A DNA stretch of 64,000 bases from Pararhodobacter marinus (GTDB lineage Bacteria > Pseudomonadota > Alphaproteobacteria > Rhodobacterales > Rhodobacteraceae). The notes beneath the pieces were generated by a model. It did no database searches, was not told where the DNA came from, and worked only from the letters and a program-made list of their open reading frames with translations. Positions 165 through 28,874 of this stretch are shown here, one piece after another (the first letter of the stretch is position 1; the number at the start of each line of letters is the position of its first letter). Made by a program: the position numbers and the translations under genes. The stretch lies in the NCBI RefSeq assembly GCF_003122215.1, contig NZ_QEYD01000001.1:310001-374000 (forward strand), read 5' to 3'.

Positions 165-189
165 GGAACAACCTGTCCCTGCGCGGGTT
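165..189 (+). promoter_or_regulatory. EcfG-type (general stress) promoter P1
   Basis: GGAAC at 165-169 and GTT at 187-189 are separated by 17 nt. The site lies 30 nt before the ATG at 220. It matches the alphaproteobacterial EcfG consensus (GGAAC, 16-17 nt, GTT) and eight other sites in the window. Confidence 0.75.
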
Positions 190-219
190 TAGGCTGGCCC
201 ATCGCAACCGGGACCTGCC

Positions 220-1221
220 ATGACCGCCGATCAGAAGACCCGCAGAATCATCCCTCCCGAGAGCTCGGCGCTGCCGCTGGACCCCGGTCTCTGGGCGGAT
301 CCCCGGTCGCTGCACCGCGCCCTTCGCCGCGCGGGACACGAGGATCTGAGCGAGGCGCGGCTGCTCGAAGGGCATGTGAACGCGCATCGGCTTGTCTGCA
401 GCCTGGGCAGCGACGCGCAACGCCGCAGGACCGAGTCCGAGATGCGCGCGGGCGTGTTGTTCGGGGTCTGGGGCGCCGACAGCGCGACCAAGGTCGCATG
501 GGACGGGCGCGTCCTGTCCGGTGCCAAGCAATTCGCGTCGGGTCTCGGGCGGGTGGGCAAGGCCATCGTTCCCGCGATTGGCCCTGACGCGCAGCAACTC
601 GTCATCGTGGATGCGTCCGATCCGGGGCGTCACCGCAGCGCCGACTGGAACATGACCGGCATGCAGGCCAGCCTTTCGGGCGGGTTTCTCTGCGACGGGC
701 TGACCGGCGAAACGCTGGGCGCGCCGGGCACCTATCAGCGCGAACCCGGTTTTCTGGGCGGCACATGGCGGATCGCGTCGGTCACGCTGGGCGGCATTGC
801 CGGGCTTCTCGACCGCGCCGCCCTGGCGCTGGGGCGGCGCGGATATCTGGACGCCGAGGCGCAGGCGCTGCGCCTGGGGCCCCTGGCCATCCGCGCGCTG
901 GCGGCAGAGGACGCGATCCTCAGGGCCGGCGTGATCGCCGAGGGCGCGGCGGGACAGAAGGACCCCGAGGCCGCCGCCACCAGATCGGTAGCGATGCGCC
1001 TGCTGACCGAAGAACTGGCGCAGGAAGCCATCGCCGGGGTCGAGCGTTCCGTGGGATTGTCGCTCTTTCGGGTCGACGACCCGGTCGGGACCCATGCCCG
1101 CGATCTGGCTTGCTATATCCGGCAGGCCGCACGGGACGCGATGATGCTGCGCGTCGCACGTTCCCTGCTGACCGGGGGCACAGGACAGGGCGCGGGGCTG
1201 GAGGCGTGGTTCGATGCGTGA
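220..1221 (+). CDS. Acyl-CoA dehydrogenase family protein, short form
   Basis: A 333-residue protein resembling the acyl-CoA dehydrogenase superfamily: a mid-domain with WDGRVLSGAKQFASG (the usual DGW.LNGxKxF..G pattern) and a helical C-terminal half. It is shorter than standard enzymes of about 380 residues, and the N-terminal helical domain looks reduced, so the acyl substrate cannot be predicted. It is first in a tightly overlapping four-gene operon with a PIG-L deacetylase, a NodS-like methyltransferase and a glycosyltransferase, which suggests it works on a lipid or amide moiety of a small glycoconjugate rather than in beta-oxidation (inference). An EcfG-type promoter sits 30 nt upstream. 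The stop overlaps the next start by 8 nt. Confidence 0.75.
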   Translation: MTADQKTRRIIPPESSALPLDPGLWADPRSLHRALRRAGHEDLSEARLLEGHVNAHRLVCSLGSDAQRRRTESEMRAGVLFGVWGADSATKVAWDGRVLSGAKQFASGLGRVGKAIVPAIGPDAQQLVIVDASDPGRHRSADWNMTGMQASLSGGFLCDGLTGETLGAPGTYQREPGFLGGTWRIASVTLGGIAGLLDRAALALGRRGYLDAEAQALRLGPLAIRALAAEDAILRAGVIAEGAAGQKDPEAAATRSVAMRLLTEELAQEAIAGVERSVGLSLFRVDDPVGTHARDLACYIRQAARDAMMLRVARSLLTGGTGQGAGLEAWFDA

Positions 1222-1933
1222 CCCGTCATCCATGGCCATGACCACCAGCTTCGATGCCCTGACGCACGGCGCGCCTTTGGTCGTGCTGGCCCCGCATCCC
1301 GACGACGAATCGCTGGGCTGCGGAGCGCTGCTGGCGCAGGCCTTCGCGGCGGGAACGGGCGCGCTGGTCGTGTGCCTGACGGATGGCAGCGCTTCGCATA
1401 AAGGGTCTCGCCGCTATCCGCCCTCGCGCCTTGCCGCGCTGCGACGGCGCGAGCTTGAGGAGGCTGTCCTCCGGCTGGGCGGAACGCCGCGCGACATCCT
1501 GTGGCTGGGGCTCGAGGACGCGCGAACCGCCGGCAATCCGAGGATCCCGGCGGTGATCCGCCTGTTGTGCCGGACCTGCCAGCGGCTTGGCGCGGGCTCC
1601 CTTTTTGCCACGCTCGAAACCGATCCGCATACGGATCACAAGACCGCCGCCGCCATCGCCGAGGCGGTCGCCGCGCGGGTGGGCCTGAGACATTTCGGCT
1701 ACCCGATCTGGACCCGCTGGCAGCGCCCGGATTTCCGTGCGGACCTGACGGGCTGGACCGAACACCGGCTTCCGCCGGGCCCCCACGCGGCCCGCAAGCG
1801 CGCCGCGATTGCCGCGCATCGCAGCCAGCTCGAACCGCTGATCGACGATGCGGCCGTGTCCTTCCGGCTTGACCCCGGTTTTGTCGAGGATCTCTCGACC
1901 GGGCCCGAGCTTTTCTTCGAGAGGTCCAGATGA
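1214..1933 (+). CDS. PIG-L family N-deacetylase
   Basis: A 239-residue PIG-L/LmbE-type metal-dependent deacetylase. The zinc motif PHPDDE is at residues 27-32, followed by a second metal motif HTDH around residue 135. Family members remove acetyl or acyl groups from N-acyl sugars such as GlcNAc in glycolipids, mycothiol, bacillithiol and some antibiotics. The chosen ATG at 1214 overlaps the upstream stop and has GGAGG nine bases ahead; ATGs at 1232 and 1238 are alternatives. The downstream methyltransferase start overlaps its stop (ATGA), so the two are probably translationally coupled. Confidence 0.88.
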   Translation: MRDPSSMAMTTSFDALTHGAPLVVLAPHPDDESLGCGALLAQAFAAGTGALVVCLTDGSASHKGSRRYPPSRLAALRRRELEEAVLRLGGTPRDILWLGLEDARTAGNPRIPAVIRLLCRTCQRLGAGSLFATLETDPHTDHKTAAAIAEAVAARVGLRHFGYPIWTRWQRPDFRADLTGWTEHRLPPGPHAARKRAAIAAHRSQLEPLIDDAAVSFRLDPGFVEDLSTGPELFFERSR

Positions 1934-2493
1934 CAACCCGGGTCAGCATCGAGCATCTCGAGCGTCTTTATCGCGACACCGACGATCCGTGGAACTTCCG
2001 GTCGAGCGCGTATGAGCGGCGGCGTTTTCGTGCGACGGCCCGTGCCCTGCCCCGCAGCCGTTATCGCGCCGTGCTGGAAATCGGCTGCGGAAACGGGGCA
2101 CTGGCGCGCCATATCGCCAAGCGCTGCGACCGCTATCTGGGGCTCGACGCGATGGAAAAGCCGCTGGCGACGGCCCGGGCCGCGCTGCCGCAGGCCCGGT
2201 TCAGGCAAACGCTGCTGCCCGCACCGCTGCCCCGGGGCCGGTTCGACCTGATCTTGCTGTCCGAGATCCTGTATTTTCTCGATCCCGCCGCGCTGGGGGA
2301 CCTTGCCCGCCAGATCGACCGCAACCATCCGCGCGCCGATGTTTTGTGCGGCACATGGCTCGGACCCAGCGGCAACCCGCTTCAGGGTCGTCAGGCGCTT
2401 GCGCTCTATTGCCACGCCTCGGCACGGCGCTTCACCTGCCTGCGAAGGGGACCGGGCTACCGGCTGGATCTGGCACGCGGGCTGCGACGGTGA
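1930..2493 (+). CDS. Class I SAM-dependent methyltransferase, NodS-like
   Basis: A 187-residue methyltransferase with SAM motif I EIGCGNG at residues 50-56 and the family-typical N-terminal DDPWNFRSSAYE around residues 18-29. That N-terminus is shared with NodS-type N-methyltransferases. NodS methylates the free amine of deacetylated chitooligosaccharides; the same order of logic (deacetylate, then methylate the amine) would make sense beside the PIG-L gene, but the substrate here is inferred. The start overlaps the deacetylase stop as ATGA, and its own stop overlaps the next start as GTGA. Confidence 0.82.
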   Translation: MTTRVSIEHLERLYRDTDDPWNFRSSAYERRRFRATARALPRSRYRAVLEIGCGNGALARHIAKRCDRYLGLDAMEKPLATARAALPQARFRQTLLPAPLPRGRFDLILLSEILYFLDPAALGDLARQIDRNHPRADVLCGTWLGPSGNPLQGRQALALYCHASARRFTCLRRGPGYRLDLARGLRR

Positions 2494-3524
2494 CGGCGCC
2501 CTCGTTCGTCAGCCCCGAAAGCCGGGCGGCGCGTCTGGTCGTGGTCGGGGAACAGGCCGTTCGGGCGGCCGAGGTCGTCATCTGCATTCCGGCCCGCGAT
2601 GAGGAAGCGCTGCTGCCGCGCTGTCTGGCCGCGCTTGCGCCGCAGCTTTCGCCCCTGCGCGCCGCGATCGTGCTGATCGTCAACAACAGCCGCGACGCGA
2701 CCGCCCGGATCGCCCTGGCCAAGGCGCGGGAATGGCGGCTGCCGCTGATCCTGTGGGAGGGTCGTATCGAAGCCGGGGGCGTCGGTGCCGCGCGACGGCT
2801 CGGGGGTCGGCTGGTCCGCGACAGGGCCCCGCGCTGCCGTTTCCTGCTGTCGACCGATGCCGATGCCGTGCCCGCGCCCGGCTGGATCGCCGCGATGGCC
2901 GGCGCCCTGAGATGGGCCGACGCGGCGACCGGATTGGTGCAACCGATCCCGGCAGAACTGGCCGCGATGCCGCAGGCCTTCCACTGCCAGAGCGCCCTGC
3001 ACGCGCGCTACCTGCAACTGACCGAGGAATTCCTGTCGCTGGTCGCCCCAAGGGGCGGTCAAGGGCTGAACCTTGCCTCGGGCGCGAATTTCGGAATCCG
3101 TTTCGACGCTTACGAGGGGGTCGGCGGCTACGCGCCGCTCGCCTCGCACGAGGATCGCGACCTTCTCGCGCGGTTGCGGACCGGCGGATGGCGTCTTGCC
3201 CATGCCAAGGATGCGCTTGTGCAGGTATCGATGCGGGCAGAGGGTCGCGCCCCGGACGGCATGTCCAGCGGCATCGCGCAGCGCCTTGCCGGATTGCCGG
3301 CCACAGATTCGGCGCTGCGCCCGCTCTCGACGCTGCTGCGGCAACCCTTTGAGCAGACGCGCGGCGCCGATCCTGTCTCGACCTCGGATTTCGTCACCTC
3401 CGATATTGCGGCGCTCGCGCAGTGGGTCGAGCGTCTGAGCCGCTGCCCGACCGATCAGGCACGGGAACACCTGCTGTGGCGAGAATATTGCGCAACGCAT
3501 CGGAGGCCCGGCGCCGCGTCCTAG
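2490..3524 (+). CDS. Glycosyltransferase family 2
   Basis: A 344-residue protein with a GT-A fold signature: VVICIPARDEE near the N-terminus, LLSTDADAVP as the DxD metal/nucleotide-sugar site, and GLNLASGANFGIR with HEDRDLLARL as the acceptor and catalytic regions. The frame is open further upstream, but the GTG at 2490 overlaps the methyltransferase stop by four bases and gives a protein that begins just before the GT2 domain, so it is preferred. It is last in the stress-promoter operon and converges on mgtC. It presumably adds the sugar of the glycoconjugate made by this operon (inference). Confidence 0.85.
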   Translation: MTAPSFVSPESRAARLVVVGEQAVRAAEVVICIPARDEEALLPRCLAALAPQLSPLRAAIVLIVNNSRDATARIALAKAREWRLPLILWEGRIEAGGVGAARRLGGRLVRDRAPRCRFLLSTDADAVPAPGWIAAMAGALRWADAATGLVQPIPAELAAMPQAFHCQSALHARYLQLTEEFLSLVAPRGGQGLNLASGANFGIRFDAYEGVGGYAPLASHEDRDLLARLRTGGWRLAHAKDALVQVSMRAEGRAPDGMSSGIAQRLAGLPATDSALRPLSTLLRQPFEQTRGADPVSTSDFVTSDIAALAQWVERLSRCPTDQAREHLLWREYCATHRRPGAAS

Positions 3525-3534
3525 CGTAAGCGGC

Positions 3535-4029
3535 TCAGTCGTCGCCCTTCTGCATCCGGCGTTCGAACCGCGACAGAAGATGCATGATGAACAGGGCCAG
3601 CACCGTCGCCAGCACCGCCAGCAGCCAGATGCCAAGCCCTGCAGCCACGCCGACCGCAGCCGCAAGCCACAGGCTTGCGCCGGTGGTCAATCCCTTGATC
3701 TCGCCGCGCGAGAACACGATCATTCCGGCGGCAAGGAACGCGACGCCGCTGGTCACGGCCTCGATGGTGCGGATCGGGTCCATCTGGACATCGCTTCCGA
3801 AATTGCGCGCGACAAGCTCCAGCGTCAGCAGGCAGAAGCAGGACGAGGCAAGTCCGACCAGCATATGCGTACGCAGACCGGCGGGCCTGTCCCTGACCTC
3901 GCGTTCGAAACCGATGCAGCCCGAGAGCAGCACCGCCCCGCAGATCCGAAGCGCCACCACGGGCCATGGCAAGGCGCCTTGGCCGTCAAGCTCGGTGCTC
4001 AGGATCCTGAGAATGTCGTGGCTGTCCAT
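3535..4029 (-). CDS. MgtC/SapB family membrane protein
   Basis: A 164-residue membrane protein with the MgtC N-terminal domain. It has four or five hydrophobic segments and the family signature GFEREVRDRPAGLRTHMLVG near residues 40-60, followed by a conserved GVAFLAAGMI segment. It lacks the C-terminal cytoplasmic domain of Salmonella MgtC, as short SapB-type members do. MgtC proteins act in the inner membrane and are linked to low-magnesium and stress survival. The start is 15 nt downstream of the BON gene stop, with GGGGAG as ribosome-binding site, so the two form an operon read from the EcfG-type promoter P2. Confidence 0.88.
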   Translation of the reverse strand: MDSHDILRILSTELDGQGALPWPVVALRICGAVLLSGCIGFEREVRDRPAGLRTHMLVGLASSCFCLLTLELVARNFGSDVQMDPIRTIEAVTSGVAFLAAGMIVFSRGEIKGLTTGASLWLAAAVGVAAGLGIWLLAVLATVLALFIMHLLSRFERRMQKGDD

Positions 4030-4044
4030 GCTCGGCTCCCCGGG

Positions 4045-4464
4045 TCATCGGGCGGGATCGTCCGCGCGCAGGCCATTATGGACCCGCACCACGCCCGGGC
4101 AGTCCCGCGCGCGGTCCACCGCCCGGCGCATCGCCTTGGCAGAGGGCACGGTGCCCCGCAGGATCACCACGCCCTGAAGGACGGAGACCTCGATCCCCAC
4201 GGCCTCCGGTCCGGCCCCTGAAACCAGCGCGGTCCGAACGGCGGCTTGGATCTGCCGGTCGTCGCGATGCGCGGGAGGCGCCTTTTCCCCCGTGTTGGCG
4301 GGTGGGGGCGCGCCGTAAGGATCGCCCGGATGGTCGCCTTGCGGCGGCTCACCGGTGGTCAGCTGCGCGCGGTCCGTCAGATCCGCGCGATCGCTGCGGG
4401 CGGGCCTGGGGCTTTCCTTGTCTTCGACCTCTTTGCGGAAGTCCTGATGCGTCCTCGGGGTCAT
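4045..4464 (-). CDS. BON domain protein
   Basis: A 139-residue protein with a proline-rich, charged N-terminal half and one BON domain in the C-terminal half (about residues 65-135). The BON domain shows the IQAAVRTAL helix, the VVILRGTVPS strand pair and the VRVHNGL end. BON domains bind phospholipids or other envelope components and are common in osmotic/stress proteins. No signal peptide is visible. The ATG at 4464 is chosen because AGGAG lies six bases upstream and an EcfG-type promoter ends 36 nt upstream; longer in-frame starts would overlap that promoter. It leads an operon with mgtC. Confidence 0.8.
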   Translation of the reverse strand: MTPRTHQDFRKEVEDKESPRPARSDRADLTDRAQLTTGEPPQGDHPGDPYGAPPPANTGEKAPPAHRDDRQIQAAVRTALVSGAGPEAVGIEVSVLQGVVILRGTVPSAKAMRRAVDRARDCPGVVRVHNGLRADDPAR

Positions 4465-4500
4465 CTTGCGCTCCTGCTCTGTCTGGAACATGGGCACCGA

Positions 4501-4525
4501 AACGGCAGCGAACCCCGGATGTTCC
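4501..4525 (-). promoter_or_regulatory. EcfG-type promoter P2
   Basis: Read on the minus strand, GGAAC (4525-4521), 17 nt, then GTT (4503-4501). It lies 36 nt ahead of the BON gene start and is divergent from P3, so one 150-nt region drives two stress genes. Confidence 0.75.
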
Positions 4526-4569
4526 CGCAACGCCGCGCCGAAAATTCCCGCTGAGTCGGAACACAGCCG

Positions 4570-4594
4570 GGAACATTCACCCATCCGGCCTGTT
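4570..4594 (+). promoter_or_regulatory. EcfG-type promoter P3
   Basis: GGAAC at 4570-4574, a 17-nt spacer, and GTT at 4592-4594. The PRC-barrel gene starts 60 nt downstream. Confidence 0.75.
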
Positions 4595-4654
4595 GAGGGG
4601 CGCAGATCAAAGGGGCCGGCTGCCGGTCCCATATGCAGATCAAAGGAGGATCCC

Positions 4655-5380
4655 ATGCAGAAGCTTCTGCTTACGACCGTTCTTGCCACCGGGCTCGGCG
4701 CGGCCCTCACCACCGGTGCGGCGCTGGCGCAGACAGTACCGGCCGAGAATGGCGGCATGACCGCCGACATCGTGGCACCCGACGGGTATCAGCTGAGCGA
4801 CATGCCGCTGACCGCCGAGCATCTGCTCGACGCGACGATCTACGGCCCGACCGGCGACGCCATCGGCGATGTGCACGACCTCATTCTCGGCGAGGCAGGC
4901 CATTCGGACATGCAGCATGATCCGGCTATGGCCGAAGGGGCGATGGACGGCGCCACCAGCGAAGACATGGCGATGGGCGAAACCGAAGGCGCCATGACCG
5001 ACCCGGTCGACCAGACCGAAACCGGCGCGTCCGCCGGGGTCGAGATGACCAATCCGCCGGACATGGATGCCGAGAATACCATGGACGACGAACCCCGCGC
5101 TGCGGATCTGGGCGAGACCGCCACGACCGCGACTCCGGGTCATGGGGGGCAGGACGGGGCGGAAACCCTGTCGCATGCCATTCTCGACATCGGCGGTTTC
5201 CTGGGCCTTGGCGAGCACCGCGTCGCGGTGCCGGTGAGCGACCTGCAGATCTATCAAAACGCGGACGACGTGCGCGTCTACCTGCCCTGGACCGAGGAGC
5301 AGCTTGAAGAACTGCCCGAATATGTCGAAGGGGACATGGCGACCTATGGCCGCTCGCTGACCCCGCGCAACACGTACTGA
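4655..5380 (+). CDS. Exported PRC-barrel domain protein
   Basis: A 241-residue protein with a clear Sec signal peptide (MQKLLLTTVLATGLGAAL, cleavage near ALAQ, residues 23-26). A PRC-barrel half follows at about residues 45-72 (LDATIYGPTGDAIGDVHDLI). A long acidic, methionine-rich linker comes next, and the second barrel half is near the C-terminus (VAVPVSDLQIY). PRC barrels are small beta domains found in RimM, photosynthetic reaction centre H and many envelope stress proteins. The ATG at 4655 has a strong AAAGGAGGA site. The EcfG-type promoter P3 precedes it and a strong terminator follows, so it is probably a single-gene unit. Confidence 0.85.
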   Translation: MQKLLLTTVLATGLGAALTTGAALAQTVPAENGGMTADIVAPDGYQLSDMPLTAEHLLDATIYGPTGDAIGDVHDLILGEAGHSDMQHDPAMAEGAMDGATSEDMAMGETEGAMTDPVDQTETGASAGVEMTNPPDMDAENTMDDEPRAADLGETATTATPGHGGQDGAETLSHAILDIGGFLGLGEHRVAVPVSDLQIYQNADDVRVYLPWTEEQLEELPEYVEGDMATYGRSLTPRNTY

Positions 5381-5395
5381 CGCGACTTCAACAGG

Positions 5396-5427
5396 AAAAA
5401 GCCCGGCCCCGCGCCGGGCTTTTTTTT
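5396..5427 (+). terminator. Rho-independent terminator after PRC-barrel gene
   Basis: A seven-base-pair GC stem GCCCGGC (5401-5407) / GCCGGGC (5413-5419) with a five-base loop is followed by eight T residues (5420-5427) and preceded by five A residues, so it could work in both directions. Confidence 0.9.
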
Positions 5428-5494
5428 CACACCCGGTCCACCCGGGACCACGCCGACCCCGGCAGGCGGATCCGGGCCATCGGACCCGTCCGCA

Positions 5495-5519
5495 GGAACA
5501 TCGGCAGCCGTAGCCGGTT
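5495..5519 (+). promoter_or_regulatory. EcfG-type promoter P4
   Basis: GGAAC at 5495-5499, a 17-nt spacer, and GTT at 5517-5519, placed 36 nt before the sodC start. Confidence 0.75.
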
Positions 5520-5555
5520 GGACCCGCCAACAGCGACGCACAGAAAGGACATGCC

Positions 5556-6128
5556 ATGCCCTGTCTCGCCCCCTCGACCCCCGCTTTCGCCCGGACCCGG
5601 CCGGCATCCGCGCGCCTGCGCGACCGGGTGCTCGCCCTGTCGCTCGTGGCGCTGCCGCTGCTTGCCCTGCCCGTGGTGGCCGCCGCGCAGGAACAGAGTG
5701 TCAGCTTCATCGACACGGACGGCACGGAGATCGGCACCGCCGAGCTGACCAGCACCCCGAACGGCGTCCTGATCCGCGTCGATCTGGGATCGCTTCCCGC
5801 CAAGAGCTGGCTGGGCTTCCACATCCACGAGACCGCGGATTGCGATCCCGAAACCGCGTTCGAAGGCGCAGGCGGACATTTCAATCCCTCGGGTGTCGAG
5901 CACGGCCTTCTGACCGAAACCGGTCCCCATGCCGGCGACATGACCAATCTCTACACCGACGCCGAGGGCCGGGTGCAGGCCGAAACGCTCAATCCCTATA
6001 TCCGTTTCGACGCGGGCGAGGATTCGATCCACGGCCGGGCGCTCATGATCCATTCCGGCCCCGACGATTACCAGAGCCAGCCTTCGGGCGACGCCGGTGA
6101 CAGGATCGCCTGCGCCCCCATCCCCTGA
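5556..6128 (+). CDS. sodC: Periplasmic Cu-Zn superoxide dismutase
   Basis: A 190-residue SodC-family protein that converts superoxide to oxygen and peroxide. A long positively charged leader and hydrophobic stretch (to about residue 46, ending VVAAAQ) indicate export. Metal ligands are present: FHIHE (two copper histidines), GAGGHFNP (bridging histidine), GVEHGLL and GPHAGD (zinc ligands), and RALMIHSG (last copper histidine). Cysteines in ETADC and near the C-terminus (IACAP) can form the conserved disulfide. The EcfG-type promoter P4 implies general-stress control. The start has a GAAAGGA-type ribosome-binding site. Confidence 0.92.
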   Translation: MPCLAPSTPAFARTRPASARLRDRVLALSLVALPLLALPVVAAAQEQSVSFIDTDGTEIGTAELTSTPNGVLIRVDLGSLPAKSWLGFHIHETADCDPETAFEGAGGHFNPSGVEHGLLTETGPHAGDMTNLYTDAEGRVQAETLNPYIRFDAGEDSIHGRALMIHSGPDDYQSQPSGDAGDRIACAPIP

Positions 6129-6177
6129 GGCCCTGCCCATGCGAAGCGGTTCCCGGGCGGGGCAGAGTCCGCGCCCG

Positions 6178-6202
6178 GGAACAATCGCGCGGGAAACCGG
6201 TT
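6178..6202 (+). promoter_or_regulatory. EcfG-type promoter P5
   Basis: GGAAC at 6178-6182, a 17-nt spacer, and GTT at 6200-6202, 38 nt before the ATG at 6241. Confidence 0.75.
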
Positions 6203-6240
6203 CTTGCGCTGGCCCACCCCTTGCAGCAGGAGTTTTCCCG

Positions 6241-7101
6241 ATGACCTCGTCTCCGCATTCGCCCACGCGCACGTCCTTTCTGGCCGTCTGGCTGGCCGCC
6301 GGACTGCTGGCCGCGTGCCTTGTGCTGGTCTCGCTGCCGCTCTTCGCTGTTCTCGTGGGGCAGCCCGCCTGGGCGCCGATCAACGCCACGACCCACATCA
6401 TCCAAGGACCCGAAGCCGCGCTTGCGGGCGGGTTCGACGCCGCCCGTACCGGGCTGGGAGCGGCCATCAACGCCGCCGCCTGCTTCTTCTGGGCGTCCGT
6501 CGCCACGCTCGGCGCCGGGCTTCTGTCGCGCGGCAGGACTGGCACTGCGCGGGGCTGGATCGCCGGGTTCGGCACGGCGGCGCTGGCGGGCGTTGTCGAT
6601 TACGTCCTTCTTCCTGCCGCCCTGCGCCCGGGATGGGAACACAGCCTGCCCGCCCTCTGGGTGGCGATGGGCTTCGTGATGCTCGGCCTTGGCCTTTCGC
6701 TGGGCCTGTCCCTGGGCCTGCGAGGGGACGTTTCCGCGCGTCACCGCGGCAGCGCACAGCCCGAACCCGCCGCGACGGTCCCGCCGCCTGCGCAATCGCC
6801 GGCCCAGCCCGTCGTCGACACCCGGCTCGACGCGATGCGGCACCCGGAACCCGGCGTCATCGACGAGCGGCAATCGCGCATCGACCCGGCCGGCCGCGTG
6901 ACCGAGGATCCGAATGATCCCATGGGAGCAACGACCAAACAGCCCGGGCGCATCGGCGACGAAGCCGAAACCGGCCGCGACACGCCCGAAGTGCGCGTTG
7001 CGGGGCGCAAGCAGATGAGCAATCCGCCGCGGCACTGGACGCCCACGGACGAGGAAAGCGATGAATCCTTCCCCGCAAGCGATCCGCCGGCGAATTACTG
7101 A
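6241..7101 (+). CDS. Four-TM membrane protein with ESFPASDPP tail
   Basis: A 286-residue protein of unknown function. The N-terminal half has about four hydrophobic segments (residues 10-40, 70-95, 98-120 and 125-160). The C-terminal half is hydrophilic and proline-rich and ends in DEESDESFPASDPPANY. An ESFPASDPP-type tail is found at the end of assorted small alphaproteobacterial proteins, several of them stress-linked; its role is not known to me. The ATG at 6241 has AGGAG ahead of it, and promoter P5 is 38 nt upstream. The first half resembles small integral membrane proteins that sit beside stress genes, but I cannot name a family. Confidence 0.75.
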   Translation: MTSSPHSPTRTSFLAVWLAAGLLAACLVLVSLPLFAVLVGQPAWAPINATTHIIQGPEAALAGGFDAARTGLGAAINAAACFFWASVATLGAGLLSRGRTGTARGWIAGFGTAALAGVVDYVLLPAALRPGWEHSLPALWVAMGFVMLGLGLSLGLSLGLRGDVSARHRGSAQPEPAATVPPPAQSPAQPVVDTRLDAMRHPEPGVIDERQSRIDPAGRVTEDPNDPMGATTKQPGRIGDEAETGRDTPEVRVAGRKQMSNPPRHWTPTDEESDESFPASDPPANY

Positions 7102-7107
7102 GACCCC

Positions 7108-7275
7108 CTAATGCGGGTCGCGGTTGCGGGCCTCGACCGCCAGTTTCAGCTGCAGCGCCAGATCGGCCAGTTCGCGCGACACCGGCTCTGATTTGACCTG
7201 TTTCAGCAGCTTGGACAGCGTCTTTTCGACGTTATCCGTCTGCGGTGTCGGGGCGGTGTGCTTGGGATCGACCAT
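7108..7275 (-). CDS. 55-residue protein, possible NepR-like anti-sigma factor
   Basis: A 55-residue protein from ATG at 7275, with AGGAGG eight bases upstream. A longer frame exists but lacks a good site. The core VEKTLSKLLKQVKSEPVS, followed by ELADLALQLK, follows the spacing of the NepR core (helix, V-x-EP-V/I, helix, LL..L). NepR sequesters EcfG and is released by phosphorylated PhyR. Proline after EPV, usual in NepR, is replaced by serine, and no ecfG or phyR gene is in the window. The call rests on pattern similarity within a run of EcfG-type promoters; it may instead be an unrelated small helical protein. Confidence 0.4.
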   Translation of the reverse strand: MVDPKHTAPTPQTDNVEKTLSKLLKQVKSEPVSRELADLALQLKLAVEARNRDPH

Positions 7276-7477
7276 CTGCACGGCCTCCTCGTTATAAACA
7301 ATGCAGGCCGGGTGGCCATCCGGACGACAATGCAGGGCATCGCGGGTCAGCGTGCGCGTTACCGGATACCCTAAAGCATGGCGACCGTGTGGCCCAGTCG
7401 CATCATTCGCCGCCGCCTTCAACGGGTTCGGTTGCCGCAACCCGGGCCGGAGCCTTGGGCGAGCAGGCAGATCAACG

Positions 7478-7502
7478 GGAACATCCCGGTGGATCGCCGG
7501 TT
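7478..7502 (+). promoter_or_regulatory. EcfG-type promoter P6
   Basis: GGAAC at 7478-7482, a 17-nt spacer, and GTT at 7500-7502, 39 nt before the SDR start at 7542. Confidence 0.75.
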
Positions 7503-7541
7503 GAATGGCCTCCGACGCCCCATGTGACACGGAGGATGGAT

Positions 7542-8459
7542 ATGGCTGGCCCCGACGACACCGAGAAGACGATGCGCACCCCGCCGCCCCGCGCCCGCGC
7601 TCTGCCGTCTTACCCGACGCCGCCCTTTCCCCGGCAGGACCAGGAATTGCCCGGCAGCTTCATGTCGATGAACCCGCGCCCCGACCATGGCGAGGAAAGC
7701 TGGATCGGGCATGGCAGGCTGGACGGCTCGGTCGCGCTGATTACCGGGGGCGACAGCGGAATCGGGCGGGCCGTTGCCATCGCCTATGCCCGCGAAGGGG
7801 CCGATATCGCGCTGAGCTATCTCAACGAGATGCCTGAGGCGCTTGATACCCGCGACATGATCGAGGCCACCGGCCGGCGGTGCGTCACGCTGCCGGGCGA
7901 CATTGCCGATCCCGGCACCTGCCGCGACATCGTGGCCCAGACGCTGCGGGAATTCGGCCATATCGACATCCTGGTGAACAACGCGGCGCATCAACAGACC
8001 TTCGGCGCGCTCGAGGACATTCCCGACGAAGAATGGCGCCGCACTTTCGCGGTGAATATCGACGCCATGTTCTATCTGGCGAAAGCGGCGGTGCCCCACA
8101 TGCCGCCGGGAAGCGCGATCATCAACACGGCCTCGATCAATTCCGACGATCCGAACCCCACACTTCTGGCTTACGCCACCACCAAGGGGGCGATCCAGAA
8201 TTTCACCGCCGGTCTGGCGCAGATGCTGGCCGAGCGGGGGATCCGCGTGAACTGCGTGGCGCCCGGTCCGGTCTGGACCCCGCTGATCCCCGGCAGCCTG
8301 TCGCCCGAGAAAGTGGCGCATTTTGGCGAGAACAGCCCGATGAAGCGACCCGCGCAACCTGCCGAACTGGCCAGCGCCTATGTCATGCTGGCCGAACCCG
8401 CGTCGAGCTACGTCTCGGGCGCGACGATCGCCGTGACCGGCGGGCGCCCGATGATCTGA
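7542..8459 (+). CDS. SDR family oxidoreductase (YghA/GSP39-like)
   Basis: A 305-residue NAD(P)-dependent short-chain dehydrogenase. It has the extended N-terminus typical of the general-stress SDR subgroup (PTPPFPRQDQELPGS), the Rossmann motif ITGGDSGIG, the VNNAAHQ motif and the catalytic YATTK. Family members reduce aldehydes or ketones; the substrate is unknown. Two ATGs, at 7536 and 7542, compete. GGAGG at 7531-7535 touches the first, so 7542 is preferred for its six-base spacing. Promoter P6 lies 39 nt upstream. A small membrane protein gene follows after 57 nt and may be co-transcribed. Confidence 0.9.
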   Translation: MAGPDDTEKTMRTPPPRARALPSYPTPPFPRQDQELPGSFMSMNPRPDHGEESWIGHGRLDGSVALITGGDSGIGRAVAIAYAREGADIALSYLNEMPEALDTRDMIEATGRRCVTLPGDIADPGTCRDIVAQTLREFGHIDILVNNAAHQQTFGALEDIPDEEWRRTFAVNIDAMFYLAKAAVPHMPPGSAIINTASINSDDPNPTLLAYATTKGAIQNFTAGLAQMLAERGIRVNCVAPGPVWTPLIPGSLSPEKVAHFGENSPMKRPAQPAELASAYVMLAEPASSYVSGATIAVTGGRPMI

Positions 8460-8516
8460 TCCGGGGCGCGGTGGCGCGCGTCACCCCAGGCCGGAACGGG
8501 CGGAAAGGAGAAACAG

Positions 8517-8864
8517 ATGACCAAACAGCCGGATACCAGGCGCGCGCCACCGCAAGACGGGAAAAGCGTCGCGCCACCATCGCACCGGGACCCCGGCCCC
8601 GCGGTGGCCGCGCAATTGCGGCGCGCCATCGACCAAGGGGTCATGCGCGACAAGGTGGCAGGCGAAGATCCCGCCGCCGCGCCGCTGGGCACCGATGACG
8701 AAGCGGCGGGCACGCCCCCGCCCGCCGCTCTGGCCGAAACCGAGGCCCCGCCGCCGCCCCCGCCTCGTCCGCGACGACACCGGGGGCGGGTCGCGGTGAT
8801 CGTGGCCCTGCTTGCGCTCATCGCAGGCGGGCTCGTGGCACTGGGCCTGTCGGGCAGCGTCTGA
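8517..8864 (+). CDS. Small proline-rich single-TM protein
   Basis: A 115-residue protein of unknown function. A charged, proline- and alanine-rich cytoplasmic part contains a run of six prolines followed by arginines (PRPRRHRGR). One C-terminal transmembrane helix (VAVIVALLALIAGGLVALGL, about residues 91-110) completes it. The layout is that of a tail-anchored inner-membrane protein. GAAAGGAG sits about six bases before the ATG. It lies downstream of the stress SDR gene and just ahead of promoter P7. Low sequence complexity makes homology hard to judge. Confidence 0.65.
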   Translation: MTKQPDTRRAPPQDGKSVAPPSHRDPGPAVAAQLRRAIDQGVMRDKVAGEDPAAAPLGTDDEAAGTPPPAALAETEAPPPPPPRPRRHRGRVAVIVALLALIAGGLVALGLSGSV

Positions 8865-8902
8865 GAACCCCGGCGCCGACATGCGCCTCGGGACCCTGCG
8901 CG

Positions 8903-8927
8903 GGAACAATCGCGGACGGCCGGGGTT
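8903..8927 (+). promoter_or_regulatory. EcfG-type promoter P7
   Basis: GGAAC at 8903-8907, a 17-nt spacer, and GTT at 8925-8927. The first Ku gene starts 25 nt downstream, the shortest distance of the set. Confidence 0.75.
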
Positions 8928-8952
8928 CTTCCTGTCTGCCAAGGGGGACCGC

Positions 8953-9756
8953 ATGGCGCGCAACAGCTTCTGGAAAGGCTATCTCAAACTTTCGCTCGTC
9001 ACCTGCCCGGTGACGTTGCAACCGGCCGTGACCCAATCCGAGAAGCTGCGCTTTCACACCCTGAACGAAGCCACCGGCAACCGCGTCGTCTCGCGCTATG
9101 TCGACGAGAAGACGGGAAAACCCGTGCGCGAGGCGGACGAGGCGCGCGGCTATCCGATGGGCGAGGACGACTTCGTCCTGCTGGAAGACGAGGACCTGGA
9201 GAGCGTCGCGCTGGAAAGCACGCGTACCATCGATATCGAGACCTTCGTTCCCGCCGCGTCTATCGGCTGGATCTGGTACGACCGGCCGCATTTCCTCGTA
9301 CCCGCGGACAAGGTGGGCGAAGAGGCGTTCTCGGTGATCCGCGCCGCCATGGCCGGGACCAGCACGGTGGGCATTGCCCGGCTTGTCCTCTACCGCCGTG
9401 AGCGCGCGGTCATGCTGCGTCCGCGTGGCAAGGGGATCGTGTTGTGGACACTGCGCTACGGCGACGAGGTGCGCGACCAGACGCCCTACTTCGACGGCAT
9501 CGAAAGCGGAAAGCCCGGCGCGAAGCCGCTCAAGCTGATGAAGTCGCTGATACAAGAACGCACCCGCGACTGGACGCCCGACATGGTCACCGACCCCGTG
9601 CAGGAACGACTGCAGGACATGATCGCGGCCCGGCAGAAGGGGCGCAAGCGTCGGGCGAAACCCTCGGCCAGACCGGCGCCGCAGGCGGACAACGTGGTCA
9701 ATATCATGGACGCGCTGAAGCGCAGCCTGAAGGACGAGAAAGCCGGCAAGGGATAG
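8953..9756 (+). CDS. ku: Ku protein, NHEJ (copy 1)
   Basis: A 267-residue bacterial Ku, which forms a homodimeric ring that binds DNA double-strand ends and recruits LigD. Visible family features are the N-terminal FWKGYLKLSLVTCPV, the FHTLNEATGNRV strand region and the YRRERAVMLRPRGKGIVLWT core. A basic C-terminal tail (RQKGRKRRAKPSAR) leads to VVNIMDALKRSL. The ATG at 8953 has AAGGGGGA ahead. Longer frames run into promoter P7. It converges on ligD with a six-base gap and is one of two Ku genes in this locus; the tail is shorter than in copy 2. Confidence 0.93.
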   Translation: MARNSFWKGYLKLSLVTCPVTLQPAVTQSEKLRFHTLNEATGNRVVSRYVDEKTGKPVREADEARGYPMGEDDFVLLEDEDLESVALESTRTIDIETFVPAASIGWIWYDRPHFLVPADKVGEEAFSVIRAAMAGTSTVGIARLVLYRRERAVMLRPRGKGIVLWTLRYGDEVRDQTPYFDGIESGKPGAKPLKLMKSLIQERTRDWTPDMVTDPVQERLQDMIAARQKGRKRRAKPSARPAPQADNVVNIMDALKRSLKDEKAGKG

Positions 9757-9762
9757 GACTGA

Positions 9763-12282
9763 TCAACGCCTCTTGCGCGATCCCCCCGCGCTGGCCACTG
9801 TCTTGCCGGTTTTCAGCGGCAGGGCGGCAGCGTGAAAATCCTCCCACGGATCCTGTGTCAGCGCATCGAGCCGCGCCGGAAGGGTTTCGACCGTGAACAG
9901 CGCGGGCCCGATCTCGTCCAGTTCGTCCCAGGATACCGGGGTCGAAACGGGCGCACCCGGACGCGCGCGGGGGGAATAGGCGGCAACAGCCGTGGCGCCG
10001 CGCTGGTTGCGCAGGTAATCGATCAGGATCCGACCCTTGCGCTTGGCCTTGGATACCGTCGCCACGTAATCCCCCGGCTGATCCGAGGCCATCGCCTGCG
10101 CCATCGCCTTGGTAAAGGATTTGACCTCGGGCCATGTCGCATGGGGTTTGAGCGGGGCCACGACGTGCAGCCCCTTGCCCCCCGACGTCTTGACGAAGGC
10201 TTCCAGCCCGGCCTCGCCCAGCCGTTCGCGCAGATCGCGCGCGGCGGTGACGATACGCGGCCAGTCGACGCCTTGGCCCGGGTCCAGATCCATGATCAGC
10301 ATGTCCGGCCGCTCCCAGTCGTCCAGCGAGGCGCCCCACGGGTGGATTTCCAGCGCGGCACCCTGCACCAGCCGGACCAGCCCGGCCAGATTGCCGATCG
10401 CGATGGCCGGCTCGCCATCCTTCTTGTCCGTCGGCGCGTCGATCTCGGACCCCATCCCTTTCCACGGATGTTTCTGAAAGAACGTCTGACCGCCGATCCC
10501 GGTCGGGCAGCGCAGCAGCGCCAGCGGACGGTTCACCACGAAAGGCGCGATGCGGGGCCAGACCTGCGCGTGATACTCGGCCAGCCCCTCTTTGGTGATC
10601 CCGGCGTCGGGCCAGTAAACCCGGTCGGGATGGGTCAGGCGCACGCGCGGCATCGGCGCCCGGCTCGGTGCTTTGGGCGCGGTCTCAGGCGCGGCTTCGG
10701 CCACGACGTCCGTCGCGGGCTTGTCCTCGCGCAGTCCGCGAAACGCGGCGTGGCGCAGTTGTCCGTCCCCGGTCCAGGCGCGGAATTCGACTTCGGCCAC
10801 AAGATCGGGCTTCACGAAGACCACATCGCGCTTCTGGGTGGCGTTCAGCGCCGCCTCGAAAGGGCTGTCCGCGCGCTCGAGCGGCGCCAGACGCTTGTAC
10901 AGATCCCGGGCCATGGCCGCCGAGAACCCGGTGCCCACCCGTCCGACATGGCGCAGCTTGCCCCCCTCGAACACACCGAGCACCAGAGATCCGATGGCCC
11001 CCCGCGAGACCGACGAGGGTTTGTACCCGCCGATCACGAATTCCTGCCGCGCCGAGCATTTCGATTTCAGCCAGCTTTTCGAGCGTTTCGCGGTGTAGGG
11101 CGCGCCCCGCTTCTTCGAGACCACGCCTTCCAGACTGAGCCGGCAGGCATGGCGCAGCACCATCGCGCCGCTTTCGTCGAAATGCGCACTGTAGCGCAGG
11201 TTTGGCGCCGCTTCGGCCAACAAGGGTTCCAGAAGGGCCTTGCGGTCTTCCAGCCGCAGCGGGCGCAGGTTGCGCCCGTCGAGATGCAGCAAGTCGAAGG
11301 CATAGTAAATGAACCGGTCGCTGCGCCCTTCGGACAGGTCGGCCTGCAGCGCCGAGAAGTCCGACGCGCCCGCGCCGGTTTCCACCACAACCTCGCCGTC
11401 AAGCACGGCCTGCGCAACCGGCAAGTCCCCCAGCGCCTTGGCAAGCGCCGGCCCGAAACGGTCGGTCCAGTCCTGCCCGCTGCGCGTCAGCAGTTGCGCC
11501 TTTCCGTTCCCGATCCGCGCCTGAAGGCGGTAGCCGTCGAACTTGATCTCGTGCAGCCAGTCCCGTCCGGACGGAGCCTTGGCGGACAGCGTGGCCAGCA
11601 TCGGCGGAAGGAAATCGGGCAGGCTCTCGGCCCTGGCAGACTTGGGGATTGTCAGGCCGGGCCTGTCGTCGCGCCCCTGCCCGGCTTTTCCGGCGGCCTC
11701 GTCTTCCTTGTCATCCGGCTTATCGCCGCGCGCAATCGCTGCCATCTCGCGGCCGCTTTCCACCGAAAGCGGGGCGTCCTTCAGGATATCGCCCTCGTCT
11801 TGAGCAGCCTCGTCGCGGGCCTTGATCAGAAGCCAGTTCTCGCGCTTCTCGCCCTTCTTTCCCTGCATCCGGACCAGATGCCAGCGGCCTGTCAGTTTCT
11901 CGCCCGACAGGAGGAACTCCAGATGCCCCTTGGCGTATCCCTTTGCGGCGTCGCCGATCGGCTCCCAGCTGCCGCGATCCCACAGCATGACCGTCCCGGC
12001 GCCGTAAGCGCGCTTGGGAATCGTGCCCTCGAAGCTGCCGTAATCCAGCGGGTGATCCTCGACATGGACCGCCAGCCGCCGCTGCCCGGGATCGAGGCTC
12101 GGCCCCCGCGTCACCGCCCAGCTGCGCAACACCCCGTCCATTTCCAGCCGGAAATCGTAATGCAGCCGGCGCGCGGCGTGTTTCTGGACAACGAAGGACC
12201 GCCCCCGCTTGCGCGACACACGCCCCTTGGGTTCGGGCGTCTCCCCGAAATCGCGCAATTCGCGGTAGCGGTCGAGACCCAT
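9763..12282 (-). CDS. ligD: LigD, multifunctional NHEJ DNA ligase
   Basis: An 839-residue protein with three domains. The first is the 3'-phosphoesterase (about residues 1-160, with HAARRLHYDFRLE). The second is the ATP-dependent ligase (about 225-530, adenylated lysine in EIKFDGYR at 245-252, and GVVSKKRG as a later motif). The third is the archaeo-eukaryotic-primase-like polymerase (about 545-820, catalytic DLDPG at 665-669 and TSGGKGLHVV at 699-708). The order phosphoesterase-ligase-polymerase is that of Pseudomonas and alphaproteobacterial LigD. It lies 12 nt after Ku copy 2, with a GGGAGGG ribosome-binding site, and is expected to be read from promoter P8. Confidence 0.95.
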   Translation of the reverse strand: MGLDRYRELRDFGETPEPKGRVSRKRGRSFVVQKHAARRLHYDFRLEMDGVLRSWAVTRGPSLDPGQRRLAVHVEDHPLDYGSFEGTIPKRAYGAGTVMLWDRGSWEPIGDAAKGYAKGHLEFLLSGEKLTGRWHLVRMQGKKGEKRENWLLIKARDEAAQDEGDILKDAPLSVESGREMAAIARGDKPDDKEDEAAGKAGQGRDDRPGLTIPKSARAESLPDFLPPMLATLSAKAPSGRDWLHEIKFDGYRLQARIGNGKAQLLTRSGQDWTDRFGPALAKALGDLPVAQAVLDGEVVVETGAGASDFSALQADLSEGRSDRFIYYAFDLLHLDGRNLRPLRLEDRKALLEPLLAEAAPNLRYSAHFDESGAMVLRHACRLSLEGVVSKKRGAPYTAKRSKSWLKSKCSARQEFVIGGYKPSSVSRGAIGSLVLGVFEGGKLRHVGRVGTGFSAAMARDLYKRLAPLERADSPFEAALNATQKRDVVFVKPDLVAEVEFRAWTGDGQLRHAAFRGLREDKPATDVVAEAAPETAPKAPSRAPMPRVRLTHPDRVYWPDAGITKEGLAEYHAQVWPRIAPFVVNRPLALLRCPTGIGGQTFFQKHPWKGMGSEIDAPTDKKDGEPAIAIGNLAGLVRLVQGAALEIHPWGASLDDWERPDMLIMDLDPGQGVDWPRIVTAARDLRERLGEAGLEAFVKTSGGKGLHVVAPLKPHATWPEVKSFTKAMAQAMASDQPGDYVATVSKAKRKGRILIDYLRNQRGATAVAAYSPRARPGAPVSTPVSWDELDEIGPALFTVETLPARLDALTQDPWEDFHAAALPLKTGKTVASAGGSRKRR

Positions 12283-12294
12283 GGATTGCCCTCC

Positions 12295-13146
12295 CTACCC
12301 CGCCTTGCGCTTCGACGGCGCGCTTTTCTTGCGCCCGGCGGCGGTCTTGGCTTTCGGCTTTGCCTTGCGCGCTTTCTGGCCCGCGCTCTGGCGCAGGGCC
12401 TCCATCAGATCGACGACACTCTCGTCTTTCCGCGGTTCCGGGCGGTCGGGTTCGCGCCCTTCGGCGCGCGCCTTGACCAGATCGGCCAGCGCGGCCTCGT
12501 AGCGATCATCGAAGGCAGCGGGGTCGAAATCGCCTGCCTTCGTCTCGATGATATGCTGCGCGAGATCCAGCATCTCGCCACCGATCTTGCGGTCGGGAAT
12601 GTCCTCGAAGGCTTCCTCGGCCGAGCGCACCTCGTAATCGAAATTGAGCGTGCGCGCGATCAGCCCGTCATCCTGCGCCCGGATAAGGACGGTGCGCAGA
12701 CGCCGGAACAGAACGGTGCGCGCCAGCGCGGCGGTGTCGGTTGCGCGCATCCCCTCGCGGATCAGTGCAAAGGCCTCATGCGCGGCGTCATCGGCGGGAG
12801 CCAGGTAATAAGGCTTGTCGAAATAGGTCGGGTCGATATCGTCGCAGGCAAGAAAAGCCTCGACTTTCAGAACCTTGTCGCTGTCGGGCACGGCCTCGGC
12901 GATTTCCTCGGGCTGGAAGACGATATAGTCATCGTCGCCCGTCCCGTAGCCCTTGACCTGTGCGTCGCGGTCGACCGTCTTGCCGGTCTCGGCATCGACA
13001 TAGTCGCGCCGCACGCGGTTGCCCGTCTTCCGGTTGATCGTGTGAAAGGCGATCCGCCCCGTGGTCGACGCGGCAGTGTAGAGCGCCACGGCGCAACTGA
13101 CTTCGCCGATGGACAACGTCCCCTTCCAGTTCGCGCGTGGTGCCAT
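12295..13146 (-). CDS. ku: Ku protein, NHEJ (copy 2)
   Basis: A 283-residue Ku paralogue. The core is recognisable (NWKGTLSIGEVSCAVALYTA, FHTINRKTGNRVRRDYVD, FDKPYYLAPA, RRLRTVLIRAQDDGLIARTL). A lysine-rich tail (KARKAKPKAKTAAGRKKS) is of the type that supports DNA threading and LigD contact in longer Ku proteins. It is diverged from copy 1, so the pair may form heterodimers or work under different conditions (inference). The ATG at 13146 is chosen because promoter P8 ends 33 nt upstream; extended frames would run through it. Upstream of ligD in one operon. Confidence 0.93.
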   Translation of the reverse strand: MAPRANWKGTLSIGEVSCAVALYTAASTTGRIAFHTINRKTGNRVRRDYVDAETGKTVDRDAQVKGYGTGDDDYIVFQPEEIAEAVPDSDKVLKVEAFLACDDIDPTYFDKPYYLAPADDAAHEAFALIREGMRATDTAALARTVLFRRLRTVLIRAQDDGLIARTLNFDYEVRSAEEAFEDIPDRKIGGEMLDLAQHIIETKAGDFDPAAFDDRYEAALADLVKARAEGREPDRPEPRKDESVVDLMEALRQSAGQKARKAKPKAKTAAGRKKSAPSKRKAG

Positions 13147-13179
13147 CGTGCCTTTTCCTCGGGTTCCGGACGTCTGGGG

Positions 13180-13204
13180 AACCCGGCAGGCCAAGGATTG
13201 TTCC
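13180..13204 (-). promoter_or_regulatory. EcfG-type promoter P8
   Basis: On the minus strand, GGAAC (13204-13200), 17 nt, and GTT (13182-13180). It lies 33 nt before Ku copy 2 and should drive Ku2-ligD. Confidence 0.75.
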
Positions 13205-13258
13205 TGTCCGGCCGGACGGGACATTGCCAGCGGAGCCGCGAAACGGGGCGCCGCTGCA

Positions 13259-13283
13259 GGAACATCCGGCCCCGGGACAGGTT
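13259..13283 (+). promoter_or_regulatory. EcfG-type promoter P9 without an obvious gene
   Basis: GGAAC at 13259-13263, a 17-nt spacer, and GTT at 13281-13283. No start codon with a ribosome-binding site follows; a structured, terminated segment does. Confidence 0.65.
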
Positions 13284-13289
13284 GCCCGG

Positions 13290-13494: not shown

Positions 13495-13518
13495 GCAAGC
13501 GGTCCGGTGATCCTGCGA

Positions 13519-27807: not shown

Positions 27808-27950
27808 CGAAGCGCCGCGGCTGACGCGAGCGGCAACAATCACCTTGCTTCTGCCCAATTTGTGACAGGCTTCCCCGTCACCTTTTCGAAGAAATGGTAT
27901 AGAGAGCACGCAGCGCCGGTTCCGACCGGCCGCGCGCCAGAGGGTCAGGT

Positions 27951-28859: not shown

Positions 28860-28874
28860 GAGGGGGGCCGCCGG

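Follow-up and report, generated by a model that had tools for sequence, protein, structure and literature searches.

A 64,000-nucleotide stretch of the Pararhodobacter marinus genome (the window, C11:310001-374000) opens with nine promoter-like sites of the kind used by EcfG, the sigma factor of the alphaproteobacterial general stress response (GSR). As judged from sequence comparison, these nine sites very probably belong to a 25-kb accessory, insertable island of GSR targets that is wired to a conserved regulator. The island starts 12 kb ahead of the window with a catalase gene (C11:298001-323300 was used for scans), in a genome (G000) of 4,486,134 bases in 30 contigs. Fourteen EcfG-type promoters, thirteen with a 17-nt spacer and one with 18 nt, would drive its protective modules: catalase (katE), trehalose synthesis (otsB and otsA), Cu/Zn superoxide dismutase, PRC-barrel and BON proteins, a short-chain dehydrogenase/reductase (SDR), an acdh/PIG-L/methyltransferase/glycosyltransferase operon, a transporter, and Ku-LigD-Ku end joining. 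The PhyR-NepR-EcfG switch would act on them from elsewhere in the genome. The island appears to be gained or lost as a block, and its modules seem to be reshuffled between congeners with their own promoters retained.

In the available parts of the published work, HWE kinases phosphorylate PhyR, which leads to the removal of NepR from EcfG (PMC12148442, PMC5830050), and EcfG then initiates transcription at GGAAC-N17/18-GTT (PMC3892343, PMC6599016, PMC7083833). The published motifs are GGAAC-N16-CGTT (PMC3892343, PMC7083833), GGAAC-N17-20-GTT (PMC6599016), and GGAAC-N16-17-C/GGTT (PMC12148442). According to the same partial sources, genes for Ku, PRC-barrel proteins, and catalase are EcfG-dependent in S. 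melonis (PMC6599016), and ku-ligD belongs to the Sphingopyxis regulon (PMC7083833).

Promoter sites in the window and the island

The original prediction had reported nine GGAAC-N17-GTT sites in the first 13 kb, and a pattern scan of the window recovers every one of them in place. A tenth match (13178-13202, plus strand) is the opposite-strand reading of a palindrome, GGAAC-N17-GTTCC, at 13178-13204. Dinucleotide shuffles of the window give 0.94 expected matches, and none of 100 shuffles reaches ten. All nine sites have an A after GGAAC, as had been noted, and the base after GGAACA is A or T in each. Eight of them do stand 25-60 nt ahead of a start codon: acdh 30, bon 36, prc2 60, sodC 36, hyp1 38, sdr 39, ku1 25, and ku2 33 nt. 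The remaining 50.7 kb of the window holds no match at spacer 17, again in line with the prediction.

The spacer is defined here as the gap from GGAAC to GTT. Across the 25.3-kb island, a scan of spacers 5-35 gives 16 matches at 17 and between 0 and 4 at each other length. The 17-nt spacer had been called invariant; this holds for all nine window sites, and fails for the island as a whole because an 18-nt site lies 59 nt ahead of otsA (C11:307186). Similarly, the predicted clustering stands and the predicted extent of 13 kb does not. At least four further gene-preceding GGAACA sites lie before the window (C11:300237, 300320, 306335, and 306337), so that the cluster covers about 25 kb and begins ahead of the window.

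The island thus contains EcfG-type elements, a GGAAC -35 and a GTT -10 at a gap of 17-18 nt, and 13 of its 16 17-spaced sites are placed 25-75 nt ahead of a start codon. Together with the otsA site (18-spaced, 59 nt) this makes fourteen. GGAACA is present in 12 of these thirteen, and the transporter's site has GGAACC. Three 17-spaced matches are not ahead of a gene: C11:300833, 323178 (the reverse reading of the palindrome), and 323259. The first reads into the end of the sigma gene and was rejected as a promoter; it is counted as a match only. Assignment of the sites to EcfG gains support from the genome, which encodes PhyR, NepR, and EcfG, and from the gene set, which partly overlaps the published EcfG-dependent genes as far as the available accounts list them.

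Gene identities in the following list were taken from Pfam where indicated.

C11:298053-300161, minus strand: katE, catalase (Pfam catalase and C-terminal domain of long catalases)
C11:300403-300753, plus strand: prc1, PRC-barrel protein (Pfam)
C11:300848-301399, minus strand: second EcfG-like sigma factor (Pfam)
C11, between sigma and kinase, minus strand: small gene
C11:302102-305194, minus strand: CheB-CheR-PAS-HWE kinase, 1030 aa (Pfam PF07536 HWE_HK)
C11:305342-306004, plus strand: response-regulator-like protein (weak receiver-domain match below the curated cut-off)
C11, between the response-regulator-like gene and otsB, minus strand: sm2, small gene
C11, after sm2, plus strand: otsB and otsA (Pfam trehalose-phosphatase and glycosyltransferase family 20)
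C11:307186: EcfG-type promoter of otsA, 18-nt spacer, 59 nt ahead of the gene
C11:308844-310088, plus strand: MFS transporter with its own GGAACC site
window 165..189, plus strand: EcfG-type promoter, CG-GGAACAA-N15-GTT, of the putative acdh-pigL-methyltransferase-glycosyltransferase operon; site retained 31 nt ahead of the G016 ortholog
window 220..1221, plus strand: acdh, acyl-CoA-dehydrogenase-like (no Pfam match; plasmid relatives are annotated as acyl-CoA dehydrogenase)
window 1214..1933, plus strand: PIG-L deacetylase (Pfam)
window 1930..2493, plus strand: NodS-like SAM methyltransferase (Pfam)
window 2490..3524, plus strand: family-2 glycosyltransferase at the operon end, without a site of its own (Pfam)
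window 3535..4029, minus strand: MgtC family protein downstream of bon (Pfam)
window 4045..4464, minus strand: bon, BON-domain protein (Pfam)
window 4501..4525, minus strand: EcfG-type promoter of bon (and of mgtC if co-transcribed)
window 4570..4594, plus strand: EcfG-type promoter of prc2; site retained before the G016 ortholog
window 4655..5380, plus strand: prc2 protein (sub-threshold PRC-barrel match only, E 0.037)
window 5495..5519, plus strand: EcfG-type promoter of sodC; site retained before the G016 ortholog
window 5556..6128, plus strand: sodC, Cu/Zn superoxide dismutase (Pfam)
window 6178..6202, plus strand: EcfG-type promoter of hyp1; site retained before the G016 ortholog
window 6241..7101, plus strand: hyp1 (no Pfam match)
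window, between hyp1 and sdr: small gene
window 7478..7502, plus strand: EcfG-type promoter of sdr; site retained before the G016 ortholog
window 7542..8459, plus strand: sdr, SDR (Pfam)
window 8517..8864, plus strand: hyp2, small protein without a site of its own
window 8903..8927, plus strand: EcfG-type promoter of ku1
window 8953..9756, plus strand: ku1, Ku protein 1 (Pfam)
window 9763..12282, minus strand: DNA ligase D (LigD) with 3'-phosphoesterase, ligase, and primase-polymerase domains (Pfam)
window 12295..13146, minus strand: ku2, Ku protein 2, start codon taken at 13146 (Pfam)
window 13178..13204, minus strand: palindromic EcfG-type promoter of ku2 (and of ligD if co-transcribed)
window 13259..13283, plus strand: orphan EcfG-type site at the island edge
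window 13284..13423: presumed right-hand island junction interval; homology beside hup ends at 13423 in the sister species G006 and nearer hup in seven others

A second GGAAC-N17-GTTCC palindrome lies at C11:306335-306361, between otsB and sm2. In both palindromes, the -10 of one promoter doubles as the -35 of the opposing promoter. The otsB/sm2 palindrome would serve two divergent genes, and a similar two-way layout is seen in the phyR-nepR intergenic region.

Distribution of matches in the genome

A loose class (GGAACA-N16-GTT) and a strict class (GGAACAW-N15-GTT) were scanned genome-wide. The loose pattern, for which the original prediction had proposed such a scan, occurs 52 times compared with 14 for the reversed pattern, and 14 of the 52 fall in C11:300237-323283. 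Strict matches number 27 (8 for the reversed control). Their density is far from equal, as 13 of the 27 lie within 23 kb of 4.49 Mb; when 27 points were placed at random, no trial out of 20,000 put 13 into such a stretch, and the largest number was five.

Chance or GC-driven matching is hardly credible as the source of these sites. In its favor are the high GC content of the genome and a genome-wide background of about 72 GGAAC-Nk-GTT matches per spacer (430 over the six spacers 19-24); against it stand the spacer specificity, the clustering, by which the 20,000 placements already refute chance, and the conservation of the sites before orthologs described below.

All 17-spaced sites in the genome amount to 119 against the per-spacer background of 72. 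The 67 non-A sites among them show no excess over the reversed control (79). The excess is thus found at spacer 17 and, when judged by the reversed control, in the GGAACA class; the island probably does not hold all of the promoters. A broad 18-spaced regulon was considered and rejected, as the 72 matches at 18 equal the background of 72 with no excess; the reversed control for this spacer is lower (37), and the two controls disagree.

Fourteen strict matches lie outside the island. Their location was judged with a rough custom caller of open reading frames (ORFs). Four are in no called gene (C1:135937, C3:43369, C3:55459, and C24:307633), one is at the start of a called gene (C3:49095), two are in doubtful short ORFs (C2:135738 and C3:107770), and seven more are inside long ORFs. 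Only C3:55459, before ExoD, and C2:135738 have CG ahead of GGAAC.

The conserved switch and the sigma factor of the island

PhyR, NepR, and an EcfG-like sigma factor are all encoded on contig C29; the lack of an EcfG or PhyR homologue would have contradicted the original prediction. NepR was found once in the genome, flanked by phyR (minus strand) and ecfG (plus strand). PhyR has Pfam PhyR_sigma2, PhyR_sigma-like, and receiver domains, and EcfG has sigma regions 2 and 4. By inspection, each strand of the phyR-nepR intergenic region contains a 17-spaced GGAACC site. NepR is present in 16 of the 18 genomes of the genus, and the two without a match are 64% and 70% complete.

The original prediction had missed a second EcfG-like sigma factor and an HWE kinase within the cluster, as well as the absence of the cluster from its spot in the examined relatives. 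The island sigma factor is 43% identical to the EcfG beside NepR over 148 residues and has a PhyR_sigma2 match of 48.5 bits; its EcfG (ECF15) kinship is defined by this identity and the Pfam match. Relatives are located inside two blocks of congeners described below (84% identity in G016, 53% in G017).

By analogy with published work on the family, stress would cause an HWE kinase to phosphorylate PhyR, and phosphorylated PhyR would remove NepR from EcfG. The island has its own CheB-CheR-PAS-HWE fusion, a kinase that may likewise act on PhyR. The freed EcfG, perhaps aided by the second EcfG-like sigma factor, would then fire the whole island.

Alternatively, the sites could belong mainly to the island's own sigma factor (C11:300848-301399), with its own promoter dialect, and not to the EcfG beside phyR-nepR. 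We regard this as rather unlikely. The position of the sigma gene in the island, its 43% identity to the EcfG beside NepR, and its relatives in the G016 and G017 blocks favor it, and so does an extended -35. Among the 16 island sites, 12 have C at the second position ahead of GGAAC, 12 have G immediately ahead of it, and 14 have A after it. The same positions give C 17, G 15, and A 18 of 20 sites in G016, and C 8, G 7, and A 10 of 13 in G017. The extended -35 is not shown by 299 sites of 80 LigD loci (C 112, G 64, A 100); these loci are the best 80 of 586 relatives, mostly Hyphomicrobiales by title, with 1.66 Mb in total. Moreover, the phyR-nepR promoter has GGAACC. However, one strand of that promoter also has CG before GGAACC, and CG before strict sites, which is enriched in G000 (8/13, p = 7e-5) and G016 (10/18, p = 2e-5), is not significant in G017 (3/9, p = 0.09). 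In G000 and G016, no EcfG site stands within 250 nt of the sigma gene itself, whereas its relatives in G017 (18-spaced, 145 nt) and G011 (17-spaced) have one. No anti-sigma gene was seen beside it, and the single NepR gene of the genome is elsewhere. In R. etli, the EcfG1 and double-mutant gene sets share the motif and none was found for EcfG2, according to the available part of that study (PMC3892343). The dialect could stem from common ancestry of the promoters, from sigma preference, or from an overlapping regulator. Control by the conserved switch, with possible help from the island sigma factor, is the reading that we retain.

Related blocks in congeners

In G016, 18 of 26 strict matches (control 3) fall in 36.6 kb of contig C6, and in G017, 9 of 22 (control 5) fall in 31.6 kb. 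Neither cluster was reached in 20,000 random placements. Both blocks hold relatives of island genes in changed order, and those of the G016 block have 52-84% identity for all but bon. With orthologs taken at 60 bits or more, and those of the 14 site-bearing genes lacking such an ortholog left uncounted, the site is retained before 9 of 10 orthologs in G016 and 3 of 4 in G017; the exception is sm2 in each. Even the 18-nt spacer of the otsA site is retained in G016. Among G000 genes without a site, none of the nine found in G016 carries one there.

No comparable strict-match cluster was found in G006, G009, and G015, or in the other 11 congeners, where the densest group is three within 6 kb (G001); many congener assemblies are fragmented, and a missing cluster counts for less there. 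In G011, sites form small groups on two contigs that bear relatives of the island sigma factor.

Several other genes were observed in or beside these blocks. The G016 block encodes a stand-alone LigD 3'-phosphoesterase domain (L157:4805-5407, 201 aa, PF13298). A search of that genome detected no other portion of LigD, and the stretch that was read showed no Ku. Genes for a COX1-type oxidase, a GMC oxidoreductase/cytochrome c, and a molybdopterin dehydrogenase are in or beside the G016 and G017 blocks (L155, L156, L158, and L160). ExoD is inside both blocks and Gluconate_2-dh3 inside that of G016. In the window's genome these two are outside the island, each downstream of a strict match.

The presumed insertion spot

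The island is flanked by eamA (C11:296908-297963) and hup (C11:323522-323806; HU identity confirmed by Pfam). Beyond these are corA, a desaturase gene, and mutY on one side, and genes for AMP nucleosidase, dxs, and a polyprenyl synthetase on the other. The eamA-hup spot was examined in 8 of 17 congeners by tblastn (E 1e-8, at which very short proteins could escape). In seven of the eight no island protein was detected between the two genes, which are 1.3 kb apart in G016, 2.0 in G009, 2.2 in G017, 3.0 in G001, 3.1 in G013, 4.9 in G002, and 9.8 in G015. Matches of 30-33% to the transporter and the SDR fall outside the interval. As G016 and G017 have an island-free eamA-hup spot, their blocks sit at other places.

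Homology on the hup side ends at window 13423 in G006, 13463-13467 in G009, G013, G016, and G017, 13512 in G015, and 13532 in G001 and G002. On the other side, the longest match stops within eamA itself, at C11:297906. The junctions should accordingly fall between C11:297906 and katE, and between the orphan site and 13423.

Several observations weigh against an inserted island of stress targets. In G006, the closest relative, hup adjoins a different segment instead of a clean empty site: no eamA occurs in the 27 kb beyond hup, while AMP nucleosidase is 99% identical. Homology stops near the island edge there (C65:92526), which indicates a rearrangement breakpoint close to the border. GC is 0.665 inside the island and 0.656 and 0.671 outside; a compositional anomaly was thus rejected, and base composition does not point to a recent foreign origin. 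Neither an integrase nor a transposase turned up in the scanned island proteins (the search did not include repeats at the flanks), and there is no tRNA at the island ends, so that a tRNA attachment site was rejected. Of the usual marks of a genomic island, absence at the orthologous spot was found, and integrase, tRNA, or compositional shift were not. In addition, some strict matches outside the island look real, such as C3:55459 before ExoD, and the island is therefore not the whole regulon. The loose GGAACA count is also not diagnostic, as in G015 it reaches 55 (control 28) and yet the strict matches form no cluster.

A LigD tree of 100 rows was built with a quick method, SH-aLRT support only, and a midpoint root. 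The window LigD groups with Pseudotabrizicola and Gemmobacter (99%, four rows, one sequence twice) inside a mainly Hyphomicrobiales set. A 100% split separates it from 13 other sequences of the same family, one of which, entered twice, comes from G011 in the same genus, and from a copy on a Paracoccus plasmid. One more same-family row has a very long branch and an unsure place. Among 149 genomes of the family, one per genus, 43 have any LigD match, many to the ligase domain only.

An old gene cluster, inherited vertically and lost in most congeners, would be consistent with the GC shared with the flanks and with related modules in two more congeners. It is nevertheless distinctly improbable, as three congeners carry the block at different places, the eamA-hup spot of G016 and G017 is without it, and the window LigD stands apart from most other same-family copies. 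Acquisition as an island, presumably by horizontal transfer, agrees better with these data.

The island edge and its neighborhood

The orphan site (13259, plus strand) has no downstream gene on its own strand by eye. The following stretch, 13291-13500, folds better than shuffles (z -4.03); it spans the presumed junction and ends at a strong terminator-like hairpin beside hup. Rfam gave no match at the gathering score, and of seven sub-cut-off matches five are on the hairpin. The site is a candidate promoter of a stress-induced small RNA, or one severed from its gene at the island edge.

Downstream of the island, polysaccharide export genes (Polysacc_synt_3 and Wzz) are located at window 26440-30179. 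A photosynthesis cluster beside the island had been suspected from dxs and was rejected, as it is not shown by the ten neighboring proteins scanned, a subset of the genes.

Promoter clusters in other lineages

In Sinorhizobium, stress-induced end joining has a role in foreign DNA uptake. The 80 LigD loci hold 299 sites at spacer 17 and 156 at 18, compared with 16-51 at each other length between 5 and 35. In 59 loci the ku1 match has a site no more than 330 nt upstream, and in 55 the ku2 match does; in six loci a single gene is matched by both Ku queries. The sequence outside the Ku-LigD cassette contains 279 sites where 59 would be expected, with six or more such further sites in 21 of the 80 loci (mean background 0.74). 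This excess points to similar promoter clusters in other families, where the gene sets differ. Among the loci, 18 encode relatives of the island sigma factor, in 13 of them within 2 kb of a Ku gene.

The acdh-PIG-L-methyltransferase-glycosyltransferase operon (window 220-3524) recurs on plasmids of Sulfitobacter, Limimaricola, and Paracoccus (L152-L154), and relatives of the acdh protein are found on Deinococcus plasmids.

A bolder model is possible, though we consider it more doubtful than probable. It would describe a portable GSR block with its own EcfG-like sigma factor, HWE kinase, and matched dialect (C-R-GGAACA-W-N15-GTT), whose self-promoted modules could be exchanged among Alphaproteobacteria in changing combinations and come under the core switch of each recipient. 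In the family, the regulator would then be core and much of the response accessory. That the same division applies to the R. sphaeroides group is speculation.

A bacterium can apparently gain or lose stress protection in one piece, with no change in the place of its master stress regulator. If targets do move as blocks around a core regulator, strains that share PhyR-NepR-EcfG may vary widely in the stress they withstand, and weak phyR phenotypes such as those that the available part of one study reports for R. sphaeroides (PMC5830050) could reflect missing targets and not a broken switch. The site pattern also provides a sequence rule for locating such blocks, as the 21 site-rich LigD neighborhoods across Alphaproteobacteria illustrate.

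Comparison with known systems

The promoter type, the switch, plasmid-borne EcfG paralogs, and Ku-LigD genes as targets are already known. In the open-access literature, we found no account of a target-promoter block that is missing at the orthologous place in congeners, located elsewhere in others, and reshuffled with its promoters. The system shares its switch proteins and promoter with the alphaproteobacterial GSR (PhyR-NepR-EcfG; RpoE2 in Sinorhizobium, SigT in Caulobacter). Unlike known GSRs, about half of the strict genome-wide matches are in one 23-kb block that is missing there in examined congeners.

The papers compared next are again represented by the parts available. As with the non-canonical, plasmid-borne EcfG2 of Rhizobium etli, a second EcfG-like sigma factor is encoded on accessory DNA away from phyR-nepR (PMC3892343). 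Here, the paralog is within a block of target promoters together with an HWE kinase, whereas no such link is described in that part of the R. etli study (PMC3892343). Rubellimicrobium thermophilum has a second GSR locus with its own EcfG and HWE kinase besides the typical phyR-nepR-ecfG locus; in contrast to the island, this locus has its own PhyR, and the available text mentions no block of target genes (PMC12148442). The PhyR system of R. sphaeroides is similar in that a chromosomal phyR adjoins nepR-like and ecfG-like genes (PMC5830050).

The plasmid stress clusters of Paracoccus, Sulfitobacter, and Limimaricola all share the acdh operon with the island. As in the island, katE is found on the plasmids of Sulfitobacter and P. 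sediminicola, P. sediminicola p1 carries genes for LigD, Ku, PRC-barrel, and MgtC proteins, and EcfG-type sites stand ahead of some genes. These clusters differ from the island in being plasmid-borne and in having only two spacer-17 sites per stretch of 31-37 kb.

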